A stretch of 20,250 nt of DNA. Source: a virus. Where the stretch lies: positions 1 to 20,250 of the IMG/VR virus record IMGVR_UViG_3300021197_000325; one strand, given 5' to 3'. The translations under genes were made by a program, and so were the position numbers. Each line of letters starts with the position of its first letter. The first letter of the stretch is position 1. The notes beneath the pieces were generated by a model. That model was not told where the DNA came from. It saw only the letters and a program-made list of their open reading frames with translations, and made no database searches. Below, piece by piece: positions 176 through 20,249 of this stretch.

Positions 176-3100
176 ATGGCAGAAGAGAATAATAAACCTA
201 CAGCGACTATCATCCAAACATCTGATGGTATGAATCTTGTTAAGTATTCTGATGGATCTATTCAAACAGGTACTGTGGAGCAGTTAACAGAATCACTATC
301 ATCTAGCTACAATGTGGTTACTACAGAATCAGACTACATTGGTATGGATATTATAGGTGAGCATCAATTAGAATACGCTGATCAAATAGCACAAATGAAT
401 GAATCAGGACAGCAAAGTTTTGGTGCACAGCAGCAAGCAACTTATGCTGATAGTATTGAAACTGGCTTTACACCAGATCGCCCTGATGAACTTACATTTG
501 ATCCAGACTCTGCTGTAGGGCAGGGTAGGAGTGGCTTCTTAGGTTTAAAAGGAGATAAGGCTAGTTATGTTATACTATCTGATGGAACTAGAATACAATC
601 AACACAAGGAAATACAGCTAGTGAAATAGCAGATGCAAACAGAATAGCTCAAATATATGTTGATAGACGTAATGCTGCTATATCAGCTTGGGATAAACTG
701 TACGGTAATATAGGGTCAGTCGTTGATGATAATACTGAGACACAGATAGCCGCACTTATACAGTCTTACAACCATTACGTACAAACAGGTCAAGACGATG
801 GCGGTGGCTTTATAAACGCAGAGACAGGGCTACCTACAGGTGCTGCAAACGAAGCTGAAGCATTCTTAATGCGTACAGGCAATTATGTAATGTCTAGAGA
901 CACTATGCTTGGTATCTTAGACAATAGTAGCCAAGCATTAAAAGACTCCTTTGCAGCCCAATATGGGGTAGAGTCTTGGGATCTTGCTCGTGAGGGTACT
1001 GCTAATAACTTACTAGGTGCAATTGGTAGTATACAAGACAATAGAAACTTTGGTATGTTGCTTGCTGTATCTGCATATAGTTCAGATGCTTTTGTAAATG
1101 CTGTTGGCGTTGCTAACATACAAAGCTATCAAGTAGGACAGCCTAACTTTAATGAGGAAACAGGAGAGTTTTTAGGGTACAACAGAGGTAACGTAAACTT
1201 TAGTATGGTTAATGGGCAACCCATAATGACAGGTGTTGCAGGTAATACTAGTAGTTTAACTGGACAAACCCTTTCTTCGTTGTTTGTAGACCCTAATCAA
1301 ATACAAGGTATTGTACAAGGAGATGTATTTTCTAACTATCAGAAATACTATAATGACTACCGTAAAGGATTTGAATTTTTAAACAACTATGACTTCTTAA
1401 ATTTAAAAGCTTTAGATAATAAGATAATTCCAAATACATCAGGGCTAGATGTTGCACCTGGAATGGGTGCACAAGACTTTACAGGCCTTAATCAATCAGT
1501 TGATTACTCAGGTATAAACAGTGGCATAGGAACCGCACAAACATTTAACACAGCAGGATCTGCTCCAGTAACATATGATACACAGCAAGTACAACAAACA
1601 TTTGATACTTCTCAACCTGCTCTAGGATCTGCAGCCACAGGAACATCCCCTCAAGCTCCTGTATCTGGAACCTTTAACTTACCATCACAGACTGCAAATC
1701 TTTCTGCTGTACCACAGACAATTACAACACAGACAGATTACACTGGTACAAACATGGCTAACCTTACTAGCCCTTCTCAAGGCGTAGGTGGGGTACAACA
1801 AGTTGTATATCAGAATCCTGCAACAGATCAACAGATTGTTACTACAGAAATAAACGGTAGTCCTATTGGTGTTATTCCTCCAGGCTTTCAAAAAGTTACA
1901 TCTGCTGCACAGGGTGCATACATCCAAGGATATGAGTCAGGTGGCTTAGTAGAAGCTGAGAAGACTATGGCATCTAAGTTTCTTGGATTTAATGGTACTG
2001 ATTTAGAGAAATTCTTAGAGGCTAATCCTGCTGCTGCAGCTAAAATGGGTAAGTACCGTACAGCATTGCGTAACAAGATGACACAGAAAGGTACAGTGTT
2101 CGCTCAGTCAGGTACGTTTGTAGATGCTGCAAATCAGCTATCAGGGGTCTCTGGACTAAGTGCGCCTGGTGATCCGTATCAACAAAAGTTAGCTGCAATG
2201 CAGCGTGGTGCTATACAACAAACTATGCAACCATTACAGTCTAACGTTAGAATGATAGTGCCACAGGCTGCTGACTTTACACCTACTGGTGCAGGGCAAG
2301 CATATCCTATAGCACCTTTTGCACAATCTGCTACAGTACCTTCTACTGCACAGGCAGGTATGCCTATGACTCAACCTGCTACTTTTATGGTTGCAGGAGG
2401 TACATCCCCACAGGTGCAAGCTCAAACTGGTGCATTACAAGCTGTAGAAGGTGAGGTATCTGAACAGGCTCAGATAGATGCAGCACAACAATTACAAACA
2501 TCTGTGTCAGGCATAGAAGCTGCTCAAGGTACAGCTACCATGATGAACAATCCTGTACAAAGGCAGATACAGGATGGTGAGATAGTATCAGGTGCAGCTA
2601 ATGCAGAAACTGCTTCTAAGTTTGCAGAACAGATAGATGCTGCTACAGCTACACCAACTAAGAAAGCTACAGTTGCAGGTCAGCTAGAAGATTTAATGGC
2701 TGACTTTGAGGGTGGTGAGACACCTGCTTGGGCTGCAGGATCTATGCGTACCGCAATGGCTACACTCTCTGCTCGTGGTCTTGGTGCGTCTAGTCTTGCA
2801 GGTCAAGCTGTGGTTCAAGCTGCAATGGAAGCTGCACTACCTATAGCTCAAATGGATGCTCAGGTACAGGCGCAGTTTGAAGGGCAGAACTTGTCTAACA
2901 GACAGCAACGTGCTATGCTTGCTGCACAACAACGTGCATCATTTATAGGGCAAGAGTTTGATCAATCATTCCAAGCTCGTGTAGCTAACGCTTCACGCAT
3001 TGGTGATATAGCAAACATGAACTTCAATGCTGATCAACAGATAGCCTTAGAGAATGCTCGTGCATCTAACACAATGTCACTGTCTAACTTGACTAACTCT

Positions 3101-3814
3101 CAAGCTATGGTAATGGCTGAGGCTGCTGCATTGTCACAACTTGATATGGCTAACCTCAACAATAGACAACAAGCTGCTGTACAGAATGCACAAAACTTCT
3201 TGCAAATGGACATGACTAATTTATCCAATGAGCAACAGACTGCAATGTTTAAGACACAGCAAAACGTTAACGCTATACTTACTGATACTGCTGCAGGTAA
3301 TGCGGCTGCACAGTTTAACGCTACAAGTGATAATCAAACTAAGCAATTCTTTGCGTCACTTACTTCACAGGTATCTCAGTTTAATTCTACTCAACAAAAT
3401 GCTATGGATCAGTTTAACGTTAATAGTGTTAATGCATTGCGTGAGTTTAATTCGGAGTTACAACAACAGCGTGACTTATTCAATGCACAAAACGGTCTTG
3501 TTGTTTCTCAGTCTAACGCACAGTGGAGACAAAACATTGCTACGATGAACACTGCAGCATTGAATGAAAGTAATGCAACATATGCTCGTACTATCAACGG
3601 ACTTACAGAAACAAACATGGGTCAGATATGGCAACGTGAGCGTGACATTATGAGCTTTGCATTTCAAACAGCTAACAATAACGCTGATCGTGCCACTAGC
3701 ATAGCAGTACAAAACTTGCAGAATGAAGCAACTAAAGATCAAGCCGCTGCTGCAAAGAGTGCATCTTTTGCTAAAGCAGCAGGTACAATTATTGGCGCAA
3801 TAGTAGGAAGTTAA
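176..3814 (+). CDS. Large N/Q-rich virion structural protein with 11-residue repeat rod
   Basis: 1212 residues. The ATG at 176 has AAGGA (164..168) seven bases upstream. Seen in order: a mixed N-terminal domain (about 1-440); a Thr/Ser/Gln/Pro-rich low-complexity linker (about 440-560); a Gly/Ala segment around residue 585 (GYESGG) leading into a helical stretch; a block near 850-890 with PAWAAGSMRTA and ARGLGASSLAGQA; an uninterrupted 11-residue periodicity from 905 to 1190; and a hydrophobic, Gly-spaced C-terminus (AAGTIIGAIVGS). I recall the middle blocks and the NLSNRQQ-type repeats from structural proteins of marine phages, but cannot name a Pfam family. Its place beside a lysozyme and other giant proteins suggests an internal (ejected) or tail-associated virion protein. 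The hydrophobic tail would suit membrane insertion, as in small ejection proteins of other podoviruses; this role is inferred. There are no transmembrane segments elsewhere. Confidence 0.7.
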   Translation: MAEENNKPTATIIQTSDGMNLVKYSDGSIQTGTVEQLTESLSSSYNVVTTESDYIGMDIIGEHQLEYADQIAQMNESGQQSFGAQQQATYADSIETGFTPDRPDELTFDPDSAVGQGRSGFLGLKGDKASYVILSDGTRIQSTQGNTASEIADANRIAQIYVDRRNAAISAWDKLYGNIGSVVDDNTETQIAALIQSYNHYVQTGQDDGGGFINAETGLPTGAANEAEAFLMRTGNYVMSRDTMLGILDNSSQALKDSFAAQYGVESWDLAREGTANNLLGAIGSIQDNRNFGMLLAVSAYSSDAFVNAVGVANIQSYQVGQPNFNEETGEFLGYNRGNVNFSMVNGQPIMTGVAGNTSSLTGQTLSSLFVDPNQIQGIVQGDVFSNYQKYYNDYRKGFEFLNNYDFLNLKALDNKIIPNTSGLDVAPGMGAQDFTGLNQSVDYSGINSGIGTAQTFNTAGSAPVTYDTQQVQQTFDTSQPALGSAATGTSPQAPVSGTFNLPSQTANLSAVPQTITTQTDYTGTNMANLTSPSQGVGGVQQVVYQNPATDQQIVTTEINGSPIGVIPPGFQKVTSAAQGAYIQGYESGGLVEAEKTMASKFLGFNGTDLEKFLEANPAAAAKMGKYRTALRNKMTQKGTVFAQSGTFVDAANQLSGVSGLSAPGDPYQQKLAAMQRGAIQQTMQPLQSNVRMIVPQAADFTPTGAGQAYPIAPFAQSATVPSTAQAGMPMTQPATFMVAGGTSPQVQAQTGALQAVEGEVSEQAQIDAAQQLQTSVSGIEAAQGTATMMNNPVQRQIQDGEIVSGAANAETASKFAEQIDAATATPTKKATVAGQLEDLMADFEGGETPAWAAGSMRTAMATLSARGLGASSLAGQAVVQAAMEAALPIAQMDAQVQAQFEGQNLSNRQQRAMLAAQQRASFIGQEFDQSFQARVANASRIGDIANMNFNADQQIALENARASNTMSLSNLTNSQAMVMAEAAALSQLDMANLNNRQQAAVQNAQNFLQMDMTNLSNEQQTAMFKTQQNVNAILTDTAAGNAAAQFNATSDNQTKQFFASLTSQVSQFNSTQQNAMDQFNVNSVNALREFNSELQQQRDLFNAQNGLVVSQSNAQWRQNIATMNTAALNESNATYARTINGLTETNMGQIWQRERDIMSFAFQTANNNADRATSIAVQNLQNEATKDQAAAAKSASFAKAAGTIIGAIVGS
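2888..3745 (+). repeat. Coding region of 26 tandem 11-residue (hendecad) repeats
   Basis: Residues 905-1190 of the 1212-aa protein divide without any gap into 26 units of 11 residues. Asn is at position 1 in 18 of the 26 units. Phe is at position 11 in seven units, including six in a row (units 13-18; for example NSTQQNAMDQF then NVNSVNALREF then NSELQQQRDLF). The remaining 22 residues to the stop are also exactly two units long. The DNA is not an exact repeat, so the 33-base period is kept at protein level only. Eleven-residue periodicity (three helical turns) is the hallmark of hendecad coiled coils. Confidence 0.75.
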
Positions 3815-3815
3815 T

Positions 3816-4886
3816 ATGGTAGACATAAAGTATAAAATGAACTGGGTTCCTCAAGCAAAGGAACTACGTGATCGTCTAACAGCAAAAGAGAATGTAGGTA
3901 TTGCTTCTAAGATAGACGAAGATACAGACGATGATTTCTACCAAAATATGTATGAGGCTCTGTCTAAGTATTTCTCTAGTGATGAGGATGCTGATAAAGT
4001 TCTTATACCTGAAGAGACAGATAGGGATGCAATATCTACCGAAGTAATCAAATCTTATGATGATATTATGAGATACTATGGTAAGACAGGTATGTTAAGT
4101 CGGGAGGGTGTTGATGTAGAGGTAGATAAAGTACTAGGTGATCCTAGAATGCTAGAAATACCAACTAAGACATTTGATGATACAGAGGAGGTGCTTTCAG
4201 TTGAAGAAGTTTCTGATATTGCTAGTGATGCTATTGATTCTACCCCAAATGCTGATGAGGTGCAGCCTACAGATGGGAAAGAAATAGACTTTTATTTAGA
4301 TATAGGTAAAAAGGCTGAAGGTGATCATGGAGATATACCTAAACCAACTAATGATAGCAGAGAAGCAGACAAACCTATTGAAGATCGTTCTAAAGATTTG
4401 GGATATGGACACAAGGTAAAAGATTTTGAAGAGGATTCTGGTTTAATACATGGTATAAAGTTTAAAAGGGAAGACGGTTCATATATACCATTAACTGAAA
4501 AACAAAAAATAAAAATATTAAATGCTGATATGGCAAGAGAATTAAAACTAGCTCGTCAAAAAGGTTGGGATGCAAAACTTAAAGCTATAGGAACTACATG
4601 GGAAGATCTAGATTCTAAATATCAAAACGCATTAAATTCGTTGGCTTACAATGTAGGTGGACCTAAAGCAGCAAAACAATGGACCGCTGTGTTATTTGCA
4701 GCCAAAGATAAAAATGTAGTAGATTTTGCTGCAGAAATGCGTAGAAAAGATAATAAAAAATATACAAAAGGAATGGATAATAGAGTAGTTAAAGAGTTAT
4801 ATTATGCAGGTATAATAAACAACTTTAGTGAAATATCCTCTGTATTACCTTTAGCTACTGCTGACGGTGCAGGAGTACCTGAATAA
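3816..4886 (+). CDS. Lysozyme-like (GH24-type) peptidoglycan hydrolase with acidic N-terminal region
   Basis: 356 residues; the ATG follows the previous stop by one base, with AGGAAG at 3805..3810. Residues 1-165 are rich in Asp and Glu and resemble nothing I know. Residues 165-345 look like a phage lysozyme: an AEG with candidate catalytic Glu168, a GYGH at 196-199, LTEKQ at 226, a helix ending NALNSLAYNVGG (271-282), and a basic C-terminal stretch with MRRKDNKKYTKG. In T4 lysozyme the residue five before the GxGH His is Thr26; here it is Asp194, and the Glu-to-GYGH spacing is wider than in T4 lysozyme, so the assignment is by pattern only. It could open the cell wall during entry as a virion component (it sits among structural genes) or act as endolysin with the holin-like gene directly downstream. 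The lysozyme part is clearly more A+T-rich than its surroundings. Confidence 0.6.
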   Translation: MVDIKYKMNWVPQAKELRDRLTAKENVGIASKIDEDTDDDFYQNMYEALSKYFSSDEDADKVLIPEETDRDAISTEVIKSYDDIMRYYGKTGMLSREGVDVEVDKVLGDPRMLEIPTKTFDDTEEVLSVEEVSDIASDAIDSTPNADEVQPTDGKEIDFYLDIGKKAEGDHGDIPKPTNDSREADKPIEDRSKDLGYGHKVKDFEEDSGLIHGIKFKREDGSYIPLTEKQKIKILNADMARELKLARQKGWDAKLKAIGTTWEDLDSKYQNALNSLAYNVGGPKAAKQWTAVLFAAKDKNVVDFAAEMRRKDNKKYTKGMDNRVVKELYYAGIINNFSEISSVLPLATADGAGVPE

Positions 4887-5329
4887 TGTTTGGATTACCA
4901 CTAGAACTAATCACCATGCTTTTCTCTACCATACTTGGTGGAGTAATGTCTATATGGGGTCAGTCAATAAAGTCTAAGCAAGCACAGAATGATATGCTCA
5001 TGGAACGTGCTAACTTCAGGAGGTCTGCAGTTAAGGATGCTCGTGACGCAGGTAAGAATGACTCACACTTTGCATGGACACGTAGGCTGATAGCTTTGTC
5101 TGCTGTGTTCTCTATAATTGTATTGCCAAAGCTAGTCGCTGTATGGTATCCTGAAGTAAGCGTATATGTAGGATACACTGAAGCAACTGGTGGTTTTATG
5201 AACTGGTTGTTTGGACCAGATGAAGCTATACAGTGGAAGATGGCACAAGGTTTTGTAATCACACCACTAGACACACACATTGTATCAGCCATAGTAGGAC
5301 TATACTTTGGCGCAGGATTTACTAAATAG
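4886..5329 (+). CDS. Holin-like three-TM membrane protein
   Basis: 147 residues. The start overlaps the lysozyme stop by one base (TAATG), which suggests coupled translation. Three hydrophobic segments are visible: about residues 5-25, 67-88 and 129-145. Between the first two is a charged cytoplasmic-type helix (28-66) rich in Gln, Arg and Lys that ends HFAWTRR. This helix/WTRR/TM arrangement resembles the three-TM holins of gene-transfer-agent type and similar proteins in marine phages. Placed directly after a lysozyme, it fits a holin that permeabilises the inner membrane so that the muralytic enzyme can reach the wall. It might instead be a virion-associated membrane protein. Family membership is recalled, not searched. 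Confidence 0.55.
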   Translation: MFGLPLELITMLFSTILGGVMSIWGQSIKSKQAQNDMLMERANFRRSAVKDARDAGKNDSHFAWTRRLIALSAVFSIIVLPKLVAVWYPEVSVYVGYTEATGGFMNWLFGPDEAIQWKMAQGFVITPLDTHIVSAIVGLYFGAGFTK

Positions 5330-5340
5330 GATAATATAAT

Positions 5341-5895
5341 ATGGCATCATTTCTTGAAGCACCAATACCAGGTCAGTCATTAACTGATCAACCTAAGAAC
5401 TGGCCTTGGGAGAATCCTCCTGAGATGTCAGGTACTGAGGATGCTACACGTTTTTACATAAACAAATTAGCTGACGATGATGTTATGGATGATCTATCCG
5501 TACTATTTGGTGGCGGTATGCCTGTAGCACCTTTCGTAAAAACACTACTTACTACAGGTGTTATGAACGGTAGGCACTCTATTGATGTAAGTATTATTGT
5601 TGCGCCAGTAGTTCACGCATTTATAAAAGCTGCAATGACAAGCTACGGCATTAAGGTTCGTGATGATATTGTTAGCCCAGAAGAAGAGATAAAAGAAAAA
5701 GAGAAGCAGAGGCTACAGACTGCAATAGAGTTAGCAATGGCTGACACAGATAAAGAAGCTGATGATCCTGGTGTAGCGTTGCTACAAGAGATTCAAACAA
5801 CTCTAAATGATGAGAGTGTAGAAGCAGTTGCAGACGAAGGTATGGAAGTAAGCGAACCTGCTGAACCCAAAGGTTTAATGGCGAAGGAGCTTTAA
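5341..5895 (+). CDS. Conserved marine-phage virion-type protein, function unknown
   Basis: 184 residues; ATG at 5341 with an AGGA at 5328..5331 overlapping the previous stop. It starts MASFLEAPIPGQSLT, followed by a Trp/Pro-rich stretch, then a compact domain up to about residue 118 with GRHSIDVSIIVAPVVHAFI. A Glu/Lys-rich predicted coiled coil follows (about 119-135), then an acidic tail ending EPKGLMAKEL. I recall proteins with this opening and HSIDVS block from marine phage structural modules, where they lack a defined function. No membrane segment or signal peptide is convincing. The tail shares a short GLM(A/S)K motif behind an acidic linker with the next gene product. Confidence 0.6.
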   Translation: MASFLEAPIPGQSLTDQPKNWPWENPPEMSGTEDATRFYINKLADDDVMDDLSVLFGGGMPVAPFVKTLLTTGVMNGRHSIDVSIIVAPVVHAFIKAAMTSYGIKVRDDIVSPEEEIKEKEKQRLQTAIELAMADTDKEADDPGVALLQEIQTTLNDESVEAVADEGMEVSEPAEPKGLMAKEL

Positions 5896-5896
5896 G

Positions 5897-7795
5897 ATGG
5901 GATTCGATTGGATGGCTTTCGCTGAAGGCTTTATGGAAGAGACTGCATCAAACATAAAAGAAAAGAAAGCAGAGGCTCGTGCCTACGGTTTAGAACAAGA
6001 TGACCTAGCCAAGCGTAATCTTCTAAAAATATCTGAGCGTAATGCTACAGTAAATAAAGTTATGGGTTTGACTCAGATGCTTAGTGATAACGGTGTATCA
6101 AATGACCAGATACAGGCTGCTATTGCCTCTGGTCCTAACGCTATATCTGAACTAGCTGTAAAAGTAAAAGAAGCTGTAGACGCACAGGACGGTAAACCTC
6201 TAACAAGCACAGATGTAGAGAGCATTATACGTATGCCTGAAAACTTCTCTCCTGTAAACATGGAGTTGGATGAGTATGTACGTAGATCCTATGGTTTATA
6301 CTCACCAAACAAAGGTGTATCTGAAACACCTGAGATAGGATTCTGGGATCGCCTAACTGGTGATGCAGCAATGATTAGAACCAAGGGTAAGCTAGATAGT
6401 AGTGCTATATACGAAGGATACACTGCTGCTGACATAAATGAATTGGCTGCATTAACTGACTACAAAGCTGTAATACCTTCTACCTTTGCTACATTTGCAG
6501 ACTTTAAACGCTTTGATAATGATGCACGTATGAGTGTTGAAAAAGACATTCTTACAAAGATTAAAGTATTAGAAGAAAGTGACCCTACTTACCTTGCAGC
6601 ACGTACAACGTTAACAGATATTTCGCCTACTACACAAATTGAAGAAGAGATAGCTGCTCGTAATGCTGCTCTAAAAATAGTTAAAGACACACACGCACAG
6701 AACTTTGGGTCTATCTTTGATCAAGCTATTACTACATATGGCACTAAAGCTATCGTAGGATTAGAAGACTTAATGAGAACACATATGGGAGATGACTACT
6801 ACAATAGTTTATCAAGTGATGTATCTACTGCAATCGTTGAAGAAACAAGTGCTTCATTAGATGATACTGAAGTTGAGATGAAAGGTAGTAAAGTAGTTAA
6901 GAGTGGTAATACGGTTACTGTATCTAACGAGGCAGTATTTTCTGATGATGATGGTGCTCTAGAAGTTACATTTGAATTATCAGAAAATGGCACAGTAATT
7001 TCTGCAGAATCAGGTGGTGCAACGTTTGAACAGGAGGATGCACAGTCTATCTACAATGACTTTGTTTCTTATGTGCCTGAAGTAATTAAAGAAGAGGTAG
7101 AAGGTACTGAAAAAACTTACTACGTAGTAGACGGTAAAACAACTTATGGTGTACCTCCAAGGCCAAACGCTTTTAGAAGCAGGTTGCAAGGTTTCTCACT
7201 AGACGCTGAGACAAGAGAGAAGATAAAGAATGGTGAGATGGCTATACCTACAGGTAGAAACCCATTGAGGGTTGATGAGTGGGATGAACTATTTGGTGCT
7301 ACCCATGATCCTGAAACAGGTAAGAGGCTTGAAGAAGTTAAACCAGTAGAAAAAGGACAAGATCAAGAGCCTAACTTTGAAGGGCCAATAGACAGCGCAT
7401 TACCACCGTCAGGTATTAGTAGTGCAGCAATAGGTTCAGCACAGGAAGAAGAGAGTGAAGATGAAAGTGAAGAACCTTCAGGATTAATGAGTAAGCGTCC
7501 TAAGCCACGCCCTAAGTTAAGCTTACGACAAAAAACAATGGAACGCTTTGGTGTAACCCAAGAAGATATAGAAGAGGGTATGGACACAGGAAGCATAACA
7601 GAATTAGACTTACAGCTTCTAAACGATAGTGGTGATGACATCTTTGAATACATCGTAGAGAATGCAGGTAGTGAACCTCTTGATGATATGCAGTTGTATT
7701 ATCAGCTTTCTAGATGGGCAGATGAAAACAATAAGGTGCTACCATTTAATATGAACTTCTTGATCTTTATGATGAAAAAGGGATTAGCAGAATGA
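5897..7795 (+). CDS. Structural protein of the late module, possibly internal virion (632 aa)
   Basis: 632 residues; ATG one base after the previous TAA, with AAGGAG at 5884..5889. The N-terminal third is helical and charged, with a block (residues 55-120) that reads VNKVMGLTQML, then SNGVSNDQI-like turns and PENFSPVNMELDEYV. A middle part (about 330-400) is rich in Thr, Val, Gly and Asp and probably beta-structured. An acidic linker (about 510-527) precedes GLMSKRPKPRPK (529 on), and a conserved-looking helical C-terminal domain follows. I recall this N-terminal block from marine phage structural modules but know no assigned function. It ends in an ATGA overlap with the 1180-aa gene, so the two are probably made in a fixed ratio and may act together in the virion core. 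No enzyme motif was found. Confidence 0.55.
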   Translation: MGFDWMAFAEGFMEETASNIKEKKAEARAYGLEQDDLAKRNLLKISERNATVNKVMGLTQMLSDNGVSNDQIQAAIASGPNAISELAVKVKEAVDAQDGKPLTSTDVESIIRMPENFSPVNMELDEYVRRSYGLYSPNKGVSETPEIGFWDRLTGDAAMIRTKGKLDSSAIYEGYTAADINELAALTDYKAVIPSTFATFADFKRFDNDARMSVEKDILTKIKVLEESDPTYLAARTTLTDISPTTQIEEEIAARNAALKIVKDTHAQNFGSIFDQAITTYGTKAIVGLEDLMRTHMGDDYYNSLSSDVSTAIVEETSASLDDTEVEMKGSKVVKSGNTVTVSNEAVFSDDDGALEVTFELSENGTVISAESGGATFEQEDAQSIYNDFVSYVPEVIKEEVEGTEKTYYVVDGKTTYGVPPRPNAFRSRLQGFSLDAETREKIKNGEMAIPTGRNPLRVDEWDELFGATHDPETGKRLEEVKPVEKGQDQEPNFEGPIDSALPPSGISSAAIGSAQEEESEDESEEPSGLMSKRPKPRPKLSLRQKTMERFGVTQEDIEEGMDTGSITELDLQLLNDSGDDIFEYIVENAGSEPLDDMQLYYQLSRWADENNKVLPFNMNFLIFMMKKGLAE

Positions 7796-10700
7796 GTGAA
7801 GCACTACAAAGCTTTTACGATAAATATAAAGTAATAGACTCAACAGTTAATCAGCAGACTGATGATATGCTAAGTAGTAAACCTAGTGTATCAGATGTTA
7901 ATGCGTTTAGAAATAAATACTCTGTAAATAAGCGTAAGGAAGAACTAGAGGAAGACACCGTAGTAGATATGGGTGGTACTCTCAAAAAGAAAGACTTCTA
8001 TAAACCACAGAATTTGTCAAAGCTTCGCAACTACATGATCTCTCGCAAAGGTGTAGACTACAAAACCGCATCAGATAAAGATGTAGTAGAAGACTTTGTA
8101 GATCATATGCGTAGATTCAATACTAATATTATTAGTACTAGTGGTGAAGTTAGACATATTACAAATGCATCAGAGGATGATAAGCGTATAGCAGGTGATG
8201 CCTATAAGTTGTATGATCAGCTAGGTAATGTGTTTGTTAATGATGGTTTGCTTGGTGCAGTTGATGGTGTATTTGATTACATAGGTGCTGCAGTTACAGA
8301 TCCTACTAACTATCTTGGTTTACTTACAGGTGGTATTGGGAAAGCATCTGCTCTTGGTTTAAACGAAGGAGCAAAACAATTAGTTAAACGTGCTGCAATA
8401 GAGGCAGGACAGAAAGCTATAAAGTCAGGAGCTACCAGAGAAGCAGCACAAAAGGCATCTCAAGAAGCTGCAGAACGTATGGCTCAACGCCTTGTAGAAA
8501 AAGGTGTGAAGGGTAGTGCAGCTAAGAAGCTGAAAGAGCGTGTAGCTTTACGTGAAAAAGAAAACTACTTGTATAACGCTAAGAAGCAAGCACAGAAAAA
8601 GTTTATAACAGATCGTGGTAAAGAAGGGATACGTAAATCTTTATATGCTACCACAGCACTAGACGCATCCTTTGCTGTACTTAATGATTACCAAATACAA
8701 AATGTAATGTTAGATGTAGGTGCACAGGAAGAGTACAGCTTACTACAAACTGGGTTTAGTTCTTTACTTGGTGCAGTAGGCGGTGGTGCACAGCTTGTTG
8801 GTGGTAAGTTTAAAGGAGCTAGTGGTTTATCAGACGTAGACCTACAGCTACGTAAAGCAAAAAGAAATGCTGAGTTAGATGCTGACATTGAGGCAGCTAC
8901 ACTTGTTGCTCTACCTAAAGGTGAAGTAAAGCGTGTAAGTAATCACATCAATAAAACATTAGATAGTTGGGAGAGTAAGTGGAAGCGTGGAGATAACCTG
9001 TTCCAAACACAAATGATGCCATCTGAACTACTGCACGACATTATGTTAGGACCAGACGGTAAGGGTGGACTAGCTAAAGTGTTTGCTGACAATGGCATGA
9101 AGCTAAACAAGAAGCTACGTGTCACAGATGTTATGACTAATGTGTTAAAGCAGATGCCCCAAGCTGAGTTACAATCTATATCTAAACGTATGCAACCTTT
9201 AGTAGGTTATACATTAGGTGATACAACAACCATAGCACAGGAGCTAGGTGACTTGATCGCATCTAAGGTGCGTAATGGTATGCAGCTTGGTAACGTAATG
9301 TCACAGACTCGCAAGACTATTGACGCAGGTGTTGTGCATGGTCAAAACGCTATGGCTAATCTAGTCCGTAACCCACAAGCTAAAGATGCTATAGAGGAAG
9401 AGATAGCAAAAGCTACAGGTAAATCAAAACCTGCTAGACCATTCAGCTATACTCAATCAGTGTGGCGTAGGTTGCTTGTATCCTCACCTGCAACAACTGC
9501 ACTCAACATAGCAGGTTTCTCTCAGTTTTATCTTGGTCAAACTATGGCTGATGTATTCACTGGCTCACTTAACTTATCTTATGGATTAGCGTTGGGCGGT
9601 AATTTTACTAAGCGTGGACGAGAGGCATTACGTGTTGCTAACGTGTATAAAGATATACAAGCACAGAAGATGCGTAACTTGATGGACCCATACACTACGC
9701 ATGATGCATACGTTGATTTCTTGTCGCAGAACAAAGAAGTAGAAAAGACTTTGTTTGAAACAATTACTGGTGGTATAGAAAGATCTGGTAAAAGGTTTAA
9801 TCTAGATCCTAACAATGCTTGGTTTAAAAACACAGAAGCTGTTACTAATGCAGCTAATCGTTTGACAGGTGTTCGTATACAAGACACGTTTACTAAGTCT
9901 CAGATGTTTATGACTGAGCTAGATAAATTTCTAAGGGTGAAAAAGCAGAAGAGCTTACAAGAAGTTCTTAATGATGGTAGTATAGATTTAATAGATGACA
10001 GTGTTGTAGGAAGTGCATTAGATACAACTTTAAAGTCTGTATTCTCAAAGAACTACACCACTGATGATCAACATTTAAAACTAGCTGCTAAGTTTACTGA
10101 GAGTATTTCAAACATGCCTCTCCTTGGTACAATTCTACCATTTGGTAGATTCTTCAATAACGTTGTAGCCACATCTTATCAATGGAGTGTAGGCGGTGGT
10201 GTTCAACTAGCATCTGCAATAGCTAAAAAAGAAAAGAGAAACATAGAAACTGTTGAAGCTTTTTCACGAAGTCTTGTTGGTGTTACTGCTTTAGGTGCAG
10301 CTATGAGGTATGATGAGGAGCGAAGACAAAAACAATTAGGTACATTTGAAATAGACACAGGTGGCGGCACAATAGTTGATGCACGTAACACGTATCCATT
10401 CTCACTTTGGTTAGCAGCAGGACGTGCTCTTAATTTGAGAAGGCAGGGAGAGCAAGTACCAAAAGAAGTTCTAGTACAATTTGGAGAACAGATTGCGGTA
10501 GGTCAATTAGCTAGTGATGTTCAGTTTGGTAATGATATTACTGCTATATTTGATACTGTATTTAATCAAGACATAGAAACAAGCAAGAAAAGTATTGATG
10601 CTATAGCTAAATTTGGTGGTAATTATGTAGCAGGTTTTACAAGACCTTTAGATGCCGTAAATAAACTAACAGGTTTTATTACAGACACTGATGCAGCTAA

Positions 10701-11334
10701 GGATAAACGTAGAACAGGTAGTGGTGTAGAATTGTTTAGTCAAAATGCTACTAAGTACTTTGATAATGTAATAGAAGCATTCACAGATAAAGCCGAAACT
10801 ATTACAGGTGAAGAGCTACGTGTAGCTAGTCGTGAAGGTAAGATACAAGATGCTAATCCTATGGCAAAGTTATTTGGTATAACTATAAAGCCTGGACGTA
10901 CAGCTACAGAGAAAGTGTATTCTATGGCTCAGATGCAACCTTGGAAAGCCAGTGAGAGATCTCAGATAGCTGCATACGATACAGTGTTTAACGAGACACT
11001 AGCTCCTGTGTTGGAAACTGCAACAGATAAGCTATTACGTGATCCTGATTTTATAAATGCTGATCTAATTGGTAAACGTTCTATGTTAAAGAGTACCCTG
11101 ACAGATGTTAAGGGTAAGGTTAGAAACTCTTTAAAGAAGTATAGCCCTCCAGAGAAACGAATACTTGCCATAAAACGTAAGGCTAGTTCGCATGGTAACA
11201 AAGAGCTACGAACTAAAGCATTGAAAGTCATGCGTGAAAGATTTAATTTTACTGGAAGTGTAGATGACATGGGGTATTCGGAGCTTCAATACTTCATGGA
11301 CTACATTGATTATCTAAAAGATATATACAAATAA
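7792..11334 (+). CDS. Giant putative internal virion / DNA ejection protein (1180 aa)
   Basis: 1180 residues; the ATG overlaps the previous stop (ATGA). Features: a charged N-terminus (1-145); an amphipathic Gly-rich segment (151-190, with DPTNYLGLLTGGIGKAS); a Lys/Ala/Glu-rich helical stretch (192-285); a second Gly-rich hydrophobic segment (317-340, with GFSSLLGAVGGGAQL); hydrophobic stretches about residues 565-600; and PLLGTILPFGRFFNN (from 776) followed by another Gly-rich patch. The C-terminus is basic and helical. Large size, alternating amphipathic or hydrophobic and charged helices, and position at the end of the late operon match ejection proteins of podoviruses (T7 gp16, P22 gp16 and N4-type large internal proteins in general character), which enter the cell with the DNA. 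No lytic transglycosylase or RNA polymerase motif is visible in it. It is the last late gene, 4 bases before a terminator hairpin. Confidence 0.6.
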   Translation: MSEALQSFYDKYKVIDSTVNQQTDDMLSSKPSVSDVNAFRNKYSVNKRKEELEEDTVVDMGGTLKKKDFYKPQNLSKLRNYMISRKGVDYKTASDKDVVEDFVDHMRRFNTNIISTSGEVRHITNASEDDKRIAGDAYKLYDQLGNVFVNDGLLGAVDGVFDYIGAAVTDPTNYLGLLTGGIGKASALGLNEGAKQLVKRAAIEAGQKAIKSGATREAAQKASQEAAERMAQRLVEKGVKGSAAKKLKERVALREKENYLYNAKKQAQKKFITDRGKEGIRKSLYATTALDASFAVLNDYQIQNVMLDVGAQEEYSLLQTGFSSLLGAVGGGAQLVGGKFKGASGLSDVDLQLRKAKRNAELDADIEAATLVALPKGEVKRVSNHINKTLDSWESKWKRGDNLFQTQMMPSELLHDIMLGPDGKGGLAKVFADNGMKLNKKLRVTDVMTNVLKQMPQAELQSISKRMQPLVGYTLGDTTTIAQELGDLIASKVRNGMQLGNVMSQTRKTIDAGVVHGQNAMANLVRNPQAKDAIEEEIAKATGKSKPARPFSYTQSVWRRLLVSSPATTALNIAGFSQFYLGQTMADVFTGSLNLSYGLALGGNFTKRGREALRVANVYKDIQAQKMRNLMDPYTTHDAYVDFLSQNKEVEKTLFETITGGIERSGKRFNLDPNNAWFKNTEAVTNAANRLTGVRIQDTFTKSQMFMTELDKFLRVKKQKSLQEVLNDGSIDLIDDSVVGSALDTTLKSVFSKNYTTDDQHLKLAAKFTESISNMPLLGTILPFGRFFNNVVATSYQWSVGGGVQLASAIAKKEKRNIETVEAFSRSLVGVTALGAAMRYDEERRQKQLGTFEIDTGGGTIVDARNTYPFSLWLAAGRALNLRRQGEQVPKEVLVQFGEQIAVGQLASDVQFGNDITAIFDTVFNQDIETSKKSIDAIAKFGGNYVAGFTRPLDAVNKLTGFITDTDAAKDKRRTGSGVELFSQNATKYFDNVIEAFTDKAETITGEELRVASREGKIQDANPMAKLFGITIKPGRTATEKVYSMAQMQPWKASERSQIAAYDTVFNETLAPVLETATDKLLRDPDFINADLIGKRSMLKSTLTDVKGKVRNSLKKYSPPEKRILAIKRKASSHGNKELRTKALKVMRERFNFTGSVDDMGYSELQYFMDYIDYLKDIYK

Positions 11335-11365: not shown

Positions 11366-11562
11366 ATACCATACATTTTTGATGCACGTTCTGCCCACAT
11401 CTGTACTGCAATTAAATTCTTTAATGCTTCATGCGTTTCCGTACTGTGGTACAAGTTATCTGAAATAAACTTTTCTAATGCTTCACTACGTTTTTTCACA
11501 CCCTCTCTGAAATGATCCTGTCTCCTAGATACAAAGTCATGCGCTTCTTTTTCTAGGCTCAT
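11356..11562 (-). CDS. Small helical protein, candidate Acb2/Tad1-like cyclic-nucleotide sponge
   Basis: 68 residues, all predicted helix, no membrane segment. The ATG at 11562 has AAAGGAAC just upstream and starts within the end of the GIY-YIG gene (26-base overlap). Two helices appear to be joined by a short turn (NLYHSTETHE); the second carries EALKNLIAVQMWAERAS. The pattern R-x(6)-I-x(n)-S-E-x(3)-A-L-x(2)-L-x(4)-M-W-A resembles the helical hairpin of phage Acb2/Tad1-type proteins, which bind cyclic oligonucleotide or gcADPR signals and blunt CBASS or Thoeris. The typical N-terminal EEIxLIN-type segment of that family is not evident, so this is a suggestion. Its place as the last gene of the early-type operon, after other small accessory genes, suits an anti-defence gene. 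It could equally be an unrelated small helical protein. Confidence 0.5.
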   Translation of the reverse strand: MSLEKEAHDFVSRRQDHFREGVKKRSEALEKFISDNLYHSTETHEALKNLIAVQMWAERASKMYGIKK

Positions 11563-12094
11563 CTTGTTCCTTTAAGTTATTAAGTATTTCTATTGCTGTT
11601 TTAACATCAAGCTTAAACCATTCACCTTTAGTCTTACCTGCTACCTTCATAGCTTCTTTGTGTGCAGCTTGCTCTAGTGTCCTTCTATTATCTGTCTCAA
11701 CAGTATGCTCTAACACAAAGTCACGATGTGGGCTACTAGTTTGATAGCTATTACATCTATCATCAGCATCAATAGCCATGCCTATCTTTACCCACCCAAT
11801 CCATGCAGGGTTAGTTATAACATAGACATAACCTTCTTTGATATTATCTAACTTATACGTGCCATCAAAAGCTGCGTCATTAAAAGTTTTATAATTTCCT
11901 GGTTTATGTAAAGGGTGTTTCTTTGCAATGTATTTACCATTTACAAACATTCTATCAGGATTACTTTTTTTACAGGATTTAATAGCTCGTGACCTGTTGC
12001 AAAACTTACAAAGAAAAACACCTCGCTGCCGCACACCCTCAGTCCAGTTAGTCTCATTTAGTTCTATGCTGCAACCACAACAATGGCGTATCAA
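11537..12094 (-). CDS. Zinc-ribbon plus GIY-YIG (T5orf172-type) putative nuclease
   Basis: 185 residues. The start codon is TTG (12092..12094), chosen because a strong GGAGG lies 8 bases upstream and the protein then begins directly at the first zinc-ribbon Cys. N-terminal Cys pairs C5/C8 and C29/C32 form a CxxC...CxxC zinc ribbon, followed by a basic linker. The C-terminal domain has the GIY-YIG-like order: GYVYVITNP (88-96), WVKIGMA (101-107), Arg113, LEQAAHKEA with candidate catalytic Glu141, and GEWF (157-160). This is the T5orf172 branch of the GIY-YIG superfamily, common in phages and often fused to DNA-binding modules. It may be a homing-type or host-DNA-directed endonuclease; the target is unknown. 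It lies among small accessory genes at the distal end of the operon. Confidence 0.75.
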   Translation of the reverse strand: MIRHCCGCSIELNETNWTEGVRQRGVFLCKFCNRSRAIKSCKKSNPDRMFVNGKYIAKKHPLHKPGNYKTFNDAAFDGTYKLDNIKEGYVYVITNPAWIGWVKIGMAIDADDRCNSYQTSSPHRDFVLEHTVETDNRRTLEQAAHKEAMKVAGKTKGEWFKLDVKTAIEILNNLKEQDEPRKRSA

Positions 12095-18200: not shown

Positions 18201-20249
18201 TTAAACGTCCACTGTGTCAAGCCAATTCTTTCCTATCTTAGCTTCTAATAATAGTGGCACATTCATTTCTACATCGTATGCGTCTTTTATGACACAGTTT
18301 AGATTAGTGTTGATAGTCTCTACTATATCCAAAACTTTTGTTACTTCGTCAGGGTGTACATCTATCACCATAGAGTCGTGAACTGTGTTGACTAAGCATG
18401 ACTGTAGAGGCTTAAGCAATTGTTCAAACTCTAGTAGTACTACAGGAACGATGTCACCTGTAGCAAATCCTTGAACAGGGTAGTTCTTTATCATAGTAAA
18501 GTGTGATACGTTACCATTACTTCTACGAGTCACATCAGGAAACGCATACTGTCTACCACTTACGTTAGTTATCTTGAGAAACCTCATGGCTTCATCACCT
18601 AACTTCTTATGCCACTTAGCTACACCTGTGTACTTCTCATTAAAGTGTTTGTAGTAGGCGGCTACAGCCTTTGATCTACCATACCCTGTAGCCCCGAAGA
18701 GTGGGGCGAATGTATGTTCCTTTGCTGCTTGCCTGGCTGTAGGCTGCCCTGCATCACTGATAACCTTAGCCGTGTAGGAGTGTACATCAAACCCTGTATC
18801 TATCTCCTGCATGGCTGTGCTGTCCTGTGAGAGGAATGCAGCAACTCTGAACTCCAATTGAGCAAAGTCACATTCCATTATCTGTCCACCCTCCCATCGT
18901 GATATGAACACACGCTTCACTGGGAATGTTCCTCCTCTTGGCATGTTTTGCATGTTGGGATTGCGTCCAGAAAATCTACCTGTACTGGTAATACTTTGGG
19001 TAAGGTTAACGTGTAGGAATCCGTCTGGTTTGGTATATATGTCGATACCATCCACGAAGCTGCTAAGGTAACTGCTAATAGCAGACAGACGCTTAAGGTC
19101 AGTAAGGAAATCAAGAGCAGACTCCATGCCGTTGCTTGTAGCGGTAGCCATAAGACTTTCAAGGTTGCCCTTACTAGTACTGAAACCATTTGCACTTATC
19201 CATTTCTTACTTGGTGCAGAGAAACATAAACCTGCCACATCTTTAGTTTTAGTTAGTAGATAACCCCTACCGTCACATGGCTTACATTTAGTTGGTAGCT
19301 TGTAAAGCGTACCATCTTTACGCAACCTGTGTACTAAGCCACGCCCATTACATTTAGTGCAAGTACTAGCTTTAGTCTTTCTGATGATAGAACTGTTTGC
19401 TTCTATTGCTTCTTTAAATTCTTGTTGTGTCTCAGTGTAGTCAAACAAATCAGCCCATTCTTTTTTGTTGTGCACACGTCTACTAAAGATAACTTGAGAT
19501 GCTTGTTCAGGACTGTTAAGATTAATAGGTGTATCACCCATAAGATTACGAGTCTTACGTTGTAACCTATCTTCTATTTCAGTTTTCTCTTTCTCAAACT
19601 CTAGTCGGACTTCTTGAAGGGCACTTCTGTCCACACGGATTCCTGACATATACATTCGGGTGAGGGCTTTGCAGGTACGGAAGGTAATGTCTCTAACTTT
19701 ATGTAAGGACTCTGCCTCTGGTTGGGAGTAGTCTTGTTCCAAGGCAAGGAACAACTCACGAGTAATGTCGAGGTCACTCCTAAGATAAAAAAGAAGCTCT
19801 TGTAAAGGTATCTCATTGGTGTTGTATCCTTTCTTGTAATACTCCTTGAGAGTGTCTTGCTTCTGATAGTTTAACTGCCTACGTTCAGCGCAAGCTTCAA
19901 GGCTTATAGGTTCTTTCTGCCCACGTTGTAGCAGGTACTCAGCTAACATCGTGTCATAGATGTCACCATCATACTTGAAGCCTGACTCCCACAGCCACAT
20001 CAAGTCATGCTGTGCATTGTGCATGATCAAGAGCGTTGTGTTATCTAGTACAGTCTGAATGTTCTTAGCTTTTGTACCACCTACGTCTTGTGCTTCCTTA
20101 TGGTTAAGCGTAAACAAATGTGTCTCATCAATGTTGTCTACGTTCTGCACACCTACTTGCACAAGCTCAAGTCCAGGCTCAAACGGATCAAGGATGTTCT
20201 TCTTCTCTCTTTTGGTTATCGTATTCTCTACGTCAAGTATAAGTCTCAT
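18201..20249 (-). CDS. Family A DNA polymerase with 3'-5' exonuclease and DnaJ-type zinc insertion
   Basis: 682 residues; ATG at the window edge (20247..20249), a natural start because Exo I follows at once. Exonuclease: Asp6/Glu8 (DVEN), NAQHD with Asp82, and Tyr155/Asp159 (YLRSD). A zinc-type insertion lies at 297-329. Polymerase: STGRFSGRNPNMQNMPR (422-438), motif A DFAQLEFR with Asp461, O-helix from Arg506 with Lys510 and Phe514, and motif C VHDS (His624, Asp625). All catalytic residues are present, so it should be an active, proofreading replicase. Phe514 aligns with E. coli Pol I Phe762. No N-terminal 5' nuclease domain and no obvious T7-like thioredoxin-binding loop are seen. It heads the visible minus-strand operon; the genes before it (helicase/primase would be expected) are outside. 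The insertion matches the DnaJ central domain reported in phage HMO-2011. Confidence 0.95.
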   Translation of the reverse strand: MRLILDVENTITKREKKNILDPFEPGLELVQVGVQNVDNIDETHLFTLNHKEAQDVGGTKAKNIQTVLDNTTLLIMHNAQHDLMWLWESGFKYDGDIYDTMLAEYLLQRGQKEPISLEACAERRQLNYQKQDTLKEYYKKGYNTNEIPLQELLFYLRSDLDITRELFLALEQDYSQPEAESLHKVRDITFRTCKALTRMYMSGIRVDRSALQEVRLEFEKEKTEIEDRLQRKTRNLMGDTPINLNSPEQASQVIFSRRVHNKKEWADLFDYTETQQEFKEAIEANSSIIRKTKASTCTKCNGRGLVHRLRKDGTLYKLPTKCKPCDGRGYLLTKTKDVAGLCFSAPSKKWISANGFSTSKGNLESLMATATSNGMESALDFLTDLKRLSAISSYLSSFVDGIDIYTKPDGFLHVNLTQSITSTGRFSGRNPNMQNMPRGGTFPVKRVFISRWEGGQIMECDFAQLEFRVAAFLSQDSTAMQEIDTGFDVHSYTAKVISDAGQPTARQAAKEHTFAPLFGATGYGRSKAVAAYYKHFNEKYTGVAKWHKKLGDEAMRFLKITNVSGRQYAFPDVTRRSNGNVSHFTMIKNYPVQGFATGDIVPVVLLEFEQLLKPLQSCLVNTVHDSMVIDVHPDEVTKVLDIVETINTNLNCVIKDAYDVEMNVPLLLEAKIGKNWLDTVDV
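19263..19361 (-). other. DnaJ-type zinc motif inside DNA polymerase (two CxxCxGxG)
   Basis: Residues 297-329 contain CTKCNGRG and CKPCDGRG, each a full CxxCxGxG repeat, 25 residues apart. Together they give four Cys for one zinc. The element is inserted between exonuclease and polymerase palm, in the thumb region where T7 polymerase holds its thioredoxin-binding loop. No J domain is present. Confidence 0.85.

Follow-up and report, generated by a model that had tools for sequence, protein, structure and literature searches.

What can be built from a protein whose C-terminal third is one uninterrupted series of 11-residue units, and what use would a virus make of it? The question is raised by a gene on the plus strand of IMG/VR virus record IMGVR_UViG_3300021197_000325, of which we analysed positions 1 to 20,250 (20,250 nucleotides, hereafter the window). 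The window belongs to an HMO-2011-type podovirus, with virion genes on the plus strand and replication-type genes on the minus strand, and its nearest annotated relatives in tblastn searches are the Roseobacter phages CRP-2 and CRP-9 and Puniceispirillum phage HMO-2011. HMO-2011-type phages form an abundant marine group (PMC9038755). Our computations establish that the array has an 11-residue period, that its length changes across the family in whole 11-residue units, and that its hydrophobic residues fall into two seams. The parts of the gene are as follows.

176..3814, plus strand: the whole gene, encoding a virion-type protein of 1212 amino acids (the array protein), homologous to HMO-2011 gp25, CRP-2 gp49 and CHOED_013
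176..2665, plus strand: N-terminal part, residues 1-830, varying in length and sequence among relatives
2666..2854, plus strand: conserved pre-array helical segment, residues 831-893 (PAWAAG...RGLGASS...ALPIAQ), which holds the anchor P889; it contains columns that are invariant or nearly invariant among relatives
2855..3745, plus strand: the array, about 27 units of 11 residues (894-1190)
3284..3481, plus strand: units 13-18, which end in Phe (position 11) and have seams rich in Asn/Gln
3524-3526, plus strand: anchor W1117, inside an NxxWRQ unit of the array
3746..3811, plus strand: C-terminal Gly/hydrophobic tail, residues 1191-1212, variable in sequence and similar in kind

An array that changes length in whole units

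A sequence-only reading of the window had found that residues 905-1190 (nucleotides 2888-3745) consist of exactly 26 units of 11; 18 of these begin with Asn, and units 13-18 end with Phe. Each of these counts was reproduced. Identity at lag 11 amounted to 51 matches, compared to a shuffle mean of 25.7 (standard deviation 4.7, maximum 48, 20,000 shuffles), with further peaks of 48, 38 and 46 matches at lags 22, 33 and 44, and none of the 20,000 shuffles reached 18 Asn in one register. The preceding unit, DAQVQAQFEGQ (894-904), stands in the same register, which brings the array to about 27 units with the best register starting at 894. The same reading had carried the period through the last 22 residues (1191-1212); this did not hold, as these residues lie off the period and the tails that follow the array in relatives differ by single residues. 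The window array contains no tandem repeat at the DNA level, indicating that the repeat is old and maintained at the protein level.

Relatives of the array protein were found in 25 phage records by tblastn, and at some 280 loci by profile and single-sequence scans of IMG/VR and of GTDB genomes (80 in one IMG/VR scan). The part that they conserve is the C-terminal third. Homologues range from 459 to 1656 amino acids, a difference that is almost wholly N-terminal, the N-terminal part spanning from less than 150 to more than 1,000 residues; it matched no PHROG profile and, among the homologues, no Pfam family except LysM in CRP-235. The period was expected to recur in homologues and was common to every one tested; furthermore, position 11 of units 13-18 is hydrophobic in 0.99 of cases in 56 ungapped homologues. 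The array protein itself returned no Pfam or PHROG profile match and nothing from a PDB sequence search; no solved or named family matches it, and we claim membership of none. A suspected likeness to T4-like cyanophage structural proteins found no confirmation, as tblastn gave only HMO-2011-like, CHOED/MQM1-like and rhizobial podoviruses.

Array length was measured from P889, the Pro in the motif (A/S)LPIA, to W1117, the Trp in NxxWR(R/Q); these two anchors enclose most of the array. As this distance can be measured without an alignment, it is free of repeat bias. By script, 237 distinct P889-W1117 segments fell into 14 length classes, all of them 8 modulo 11 and none off register. A fifteenth class, represented by a locus in which the Trp is replaced (L089), was placed by hand and also fits. 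The distances seen were 118, 140, 151, 162, 173, 184, 217, 228, 239, 250, 283, 316, 338, 426 and 536 residues, corresponding to 10, 12, 13, 14, 15, 16, 19, 20, 21, 22, 25, 28, 30, 38 and 48 units plus 8 residues. The same distances are spread over all residues modulo 7, 8, 10 or 13, and every value modulo 11 is represented among the tail lengths from W1117 to the stop codon. The chance that 15 free distinct lengths agree modulo 11 is near 11^-14, a figure that shared ancestry makes larger. Sixteen loci obtained later from the GTDB scan contained no exception wherever both anchors were present. Since unit differences are odd as well as even, the length quantum is 11 residues rather than 22. An exact modulo-11 law extending from 10 to 48 units amounts to a strong natural experiment, in which the two ends of the rod must hold a fixed rotational relation.

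The longest arrays, in L284 (whole open reading frame from 460) and L298 (open reading frame from 671), have 48 units between the anchors and about 54 in total. In another relative, a 33-bp tandem repeat is present at the DNA level inside the array (L273:4035-4131), which points to recent array growth by unit duplication. In the literature searched, by titles, abstracts and passages, we found no account of the rod or of its length law.

Two hydrophobic seams on a predicted helix

The array is predicted to be helical. In the AlphaFold2 model of a full-length pelagiphage-type relative of 459 amino acids (L183, 40 rows), residues 203-411 form one unbroken helix of 209 residues, with a block-mean predicted local distance difference test score (pLDDT) of 90-94 over 271-380 and a disordered N-terminus. 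The model of the window core (398 amino acids, 73 rows) is all helix with short breaks and no strand. A globular fold, which would have contradicted the proposed rod, is thus predicted in neither all-helical model, and the rod length first put forward, about 43 nm, is supported, at about 43-45 nm if straight. Foldseek returned nothing usable, the query models being either of low confidence or single-helix. A beta-solenoid, prompted by the Asn ladders and a 2.75-residue peak, was rejected: neither model contains a strand and the array contains no Pro. An intramolecular hairpin is disfavoured, as length steps of a single unit and both odd and even unit numbers occur.

How such helices could pack is indicated by the distribution of hydrophobic residues. 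An ordinary amphipathic hendecad coiled coil, as first proposed, was not borne out: almost no hydrophobic power is present at 11/3, and the periodic signal falls instead at 11/5, which corresponds to two seams, and at 11/4. A single hydrophobic face is absent, with a one-fold hydrophobic power of 0.1-2.4 in all length classes, whereas the two-fold power of hydrophobic residues plus Ala is 6-41 in every class. The two seams are centred near 107 and 297 degrees and so are separated by about 190 degrees. On a helical wheel with 11 residues in three turns, the hydrophobic residues are mostly found at positions 8/11 and at 2/10, with Asn/Gln at 4 and 6 in mid-seam; position 7 (and 3) is Gln/Ser with almost no hydrophobic residues, charges stand at 5 and 9, and Asn at 1. 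Gln is gathered on one face of the helix, between the two seams, and the opposite face is charged. For a straight hendecad helix, a two-fold rather than one-fold moment does not support one core face of the dimer-to-tetramer type. Two distinct seams per helix are known to give large helical barrels (PMC6175849).

These results bear directly on the possibility that the array is the shaft of a tail needle, an external trimeric rod that would plug the tail tip and make the first host contact like P22 gp26, with hendecads in place of heptads and exchangeable tips. The gene for the P22 needle lies directly upstream of the ejection genes, an arrangement that counts for this explanation. The needles of P22, Sf6 and HS1 (gp26/gp9) share with the array protein a helical rod, length steps of whole repeat units, exchangeable ends and a place upstream of ejection genes. 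The trimeric shafts of P22-like needles are helical, contain 11-16 complete heptads, measure 22-32 nm and carry swapped tips at the C-terminus (PMC3741392); the array likewise changes length by whole units and is followed by variable C-termini. However, these needles are heptad coiled coils with one core, whereas the array has an 11-residue unit and two opposite seams. A trimer should show one hydrophobic stripe, yet there is no single core face and no heptad signal (power at 7/2 about 0.2 in the window and at most 1.6 in homologues), and the two-seam pattern speaks against a simple trimer. Furthermore, the array side is conserved and the N-terminus hypervariable, the reverse of P22 needles. 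We regard a needle, the main rival of the explanation favoured below, as unlikely.

Tails, neighbouring genes and the virion module

Most members of the family end in a Gly-containing hydrophobic tail, and Gly occurs within the last 18 residues of 95% of 204 tails. In three relatives, CRP-3, CRP-235 and CRP-738 (L088, L092 and L095), a Peptidase_S74 domain follows the array; the window protein and most relatives lack it. S74 is a trimerising domain that cleaves itself off (PMC8326128). Cleavage at the presumed site would leave CRP-235 with the end AIGSIGAALITS, which is similar to AIGSIVGAIITG, the sequence with which other members naturally terminate. The likeness to Peptidase_S74 (endosialidase intramolecular chaperone) proteins is limited to the C-termini of these three relatives, and the S74 part gave no PDB match by sequence. 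PHROG matches of the S74-bearing relatives to 'DNA ejection protein' and 'virion structural protein' were lost once the S74 part was removed; resting on that part alone, they are no evidence for the array.

The trimeric state of S74 domains (PMC8326128), found in these three relatives, speaks for a needle, and S74 is also typical of fibres and tailspikes. The array protein could alternatively be a side fibre of the tail or a spacer, in which a long helical stalk bears a variable N- or C-terminal binding domain. The array gene directly follows tail-fibre genes in several phages, and a more than 3-fold variation in length is possible for fibre stalks. Nevertheless, the rod is the conserved part of the protein, no receptor-binding domain was found, the pattern of a single-core trimer is absent, and the genes that come next without a break encode a lysozyme and large proteins resembling internal virion proteins, so that a fibre appears improbable. 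The genes downstream of the array gene, and the polymerase gene that helps to type the phage, are as follows.

3816..4886, plus strand: lysozyme-like protein, 356 amino acids (Phage_lysozyme E=0.02, below the curated cut-off; the homologous slot in CRP-603 is annotated cell wall hydrolase)
4886..5329, plus strand: 147-amino-acid protein with hydrophobic, membrane-like segments by hydropathy (phrog_38283, unknown function)
5341..5895, plus strand: 184-amino-acid protein, conserved beside the array gene across the group (23 phage records; synteny) and of the size of podoviral gp14/gp7
5897..7795, plus strand: 632-amino-acid, fast-evolving protein in the slot of gp15/gp20 by synteny; only CRP-603 and CRP-207 matched
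7792..11334, plus strand: 1180-amino-acid, fast-evolving protein in the slot of gp16/IVP-D by synteny
18201-20249, minus strand: DNA polymerase A with a DnaJ-type CXXCXGXG zinc motif, a hallmark of HMO-2011-type phages

In all annotated relatives inspected, the array gene is followed, either directly or with lysozyme and small genes in between, by genes for proteins of about 180, 500-900 and 800-1500 amino acids. A gene arrangement of this kind has been described for podoviral ejection proteins (PMC8954989). T7 gp14-gp15-gp16 and P22 gp7-gp20-gp16 show the same gene order and sizes as the trio downstream of the array gene (about 184, 632 and 1180 amino acids), and likewise a neighbouring lysozyme. 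Here, however, the array protein stands as an additional component ahead of the trio, and there is no sequence match: PHROG and Pfam searches with the 184-, 632- and 1180-amino-acid window proteins were empty, with no profile match to gp14, gp15 or gp16.

The six consecutive proteins encoded between 176 and 11334 contain no Cys in 3,711 residues, and the minus-strand replication genes of the window encode 1-4% Cys in most cases. The corresponding clusters of CHOED and Slicky01 are also without Cys, and that of HMO-2011 has Cys in the array protein only, a single one within a C-terminal extension. As other virion proteins are Cys-poor too, this absence is a weak hint.

A possible part in DNA ejection

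The explanation that we favour, while holding it slightly less probable than its alternatives taken together, is a rod or tube of several parallel helices that serves DNA ejection and is comparable to the phiX174 pilot tube. In this model, the C-terminal third would run as a single alpha-helix without interruption through about 27 hendecads, giving a rod of roughly 45 nm when straight. Neighbouring copies would be aligned in parallel with no offset, joined through the two opposite hydrophobic seams, and would form a multi-helix tube or bundle with the Gln-rich face on one side and the charged face on the other. The length of the rod would change by whole 11-residue units because other insertions or deletions would rotate the helix ends and break lateral registry. 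The array protein would belong to the podoviral internal-virion (ejection) protein cluster, and the rod would most likely help to build the DNA path across the cell envelope in the manner of the phiX174 H pilot tube. Parallel oligomerisation, tube formation and a part in ejection are inferred in this model; a trans-envelope conduit is plausible on the basis of gene order, the Gln face and the cysteine-free neighbours. The LysM domain in the CRP-235 homologue also counts for ejection, as do the rod lengths: the commonest classes, with 14 units between the anchors (20 in the array) and 20 between the anchors (26 in the array), would give rods of 33 and 43 nm, of the same order as the periplasm, which is roughly 30 nm wide (PMC9022992).

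The phiX174 H tube is a decamer of 17 nm built of hendecads plus heptads, with a Gln-rich lumen lined by amide and guanidinium groups (PMC7354561). H (PDB 4JPP) and the array protein have in common hendecad helices, predicted in our case, an uncharged amide face, a wall-spanning length and a suggested role in DNA delivery. In contrast to the 16-54 hendecads found here, H has only 3 hendecads plus heptads; it belongs to a single-stranded DNA phage and shares no sequence homology. Thus, the sequence pattern of the array resembles the phiX174 H tube, and its whole-unit length variation resembles the P22 needle. If the array protein forms an ejected tube, it would be a second, unrelated amide-faced helical DNA pilot tube beside phiX174 H, and one with natural length variants.

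Particle dimensions are available for MQM1, which has a tail of 9.2 nm and a capsid of 70.6 nm in the available passages of its description (PMC10410586). The MQM1 array would give a rod of about 36 nm. Set against so short a tail, this favours internal storage, or an external rod that those passages leave unmentioned; they mention no long needle either, which speaks against a needle. A 36-nm rod would fit inside a capsid of about 70 nm, and this raises the alternative that the protein remains in the particle, as an internal core or a tape-like scaffold of the capsid or portal. The array gene lies within the structural module, and the core stacks of T7-like phages are helical (PMC8954989). Conversely, the cysteine-free window protein and neighbours, together with LysM in one homologue, hint at exposure to the cell envelope, and the longest arrays do not fit straight in such a capsid. 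A core that stays in the capsid is the explanation to which we give least credence, and we consider it very unlikely.

Several observations weigh against an ejected tube. At about 54 units, the longest arrays would make helices of about 89 nm if straight, beyond a typical podovirus capsid, and would exceed both the envelope and a 70-nm capsid. There is no homology to any solved or named ejection protein, and the rotational match to the phiX174 H hendecads, although best at the expected register, is not significant (p=0.12). The AlphaFold2 model of the window core is weak (mean pLDDT 65, predicted template modelling score 0.25), and its arrangement is for this reason not to be trusted. Seams about 180-190 degrees apart would suit a flat sheet or multi-layer bundle as well and give no oligomer number. 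The S74 domain of three relatives is a trimerising chaperone of fibres and tailspikes; an oligomer that is a multiple of three would reconcile S74 trimers with the larger rings suggested by the seams.

In its most specific form, the ejection model describes a conduit made of a ring of parallel hendecad helices, each with two seams and a Gln face. It would be 27-90 nm long, in quanta of 11 residues, and would be kept in the virion until its deployment through the envelope, the hydrophobic C-terminal end entering a membrane. We regard this full version as rather unlikely.

A few minor observations were made in the course of the scans. Two phage contigs carrying relatives were binned identically in both a Flavobacteriales and a Neomarinimicrobiota metagenome-assembled genome (L287-L290), and another relative was binned in a Euryarchaeota assembly (L292); these placements are likely binning contamination rather than prophages. 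Partial matches to phrog_4287 in whole genomes came from a draft assembly and carry no clear meaning. The minus strand of the window also carries a B12-dependent ribonucleotide reductase and MazG-type genes. On the same strand, an open reading frame of 185 amino acids with a TTG start (11537-12094) has two N-terminal CxxC-like pairs and a candidate GIY-YIG-like segment, recognised by eye only: YVYVITNPAWIGWVKIGMA.

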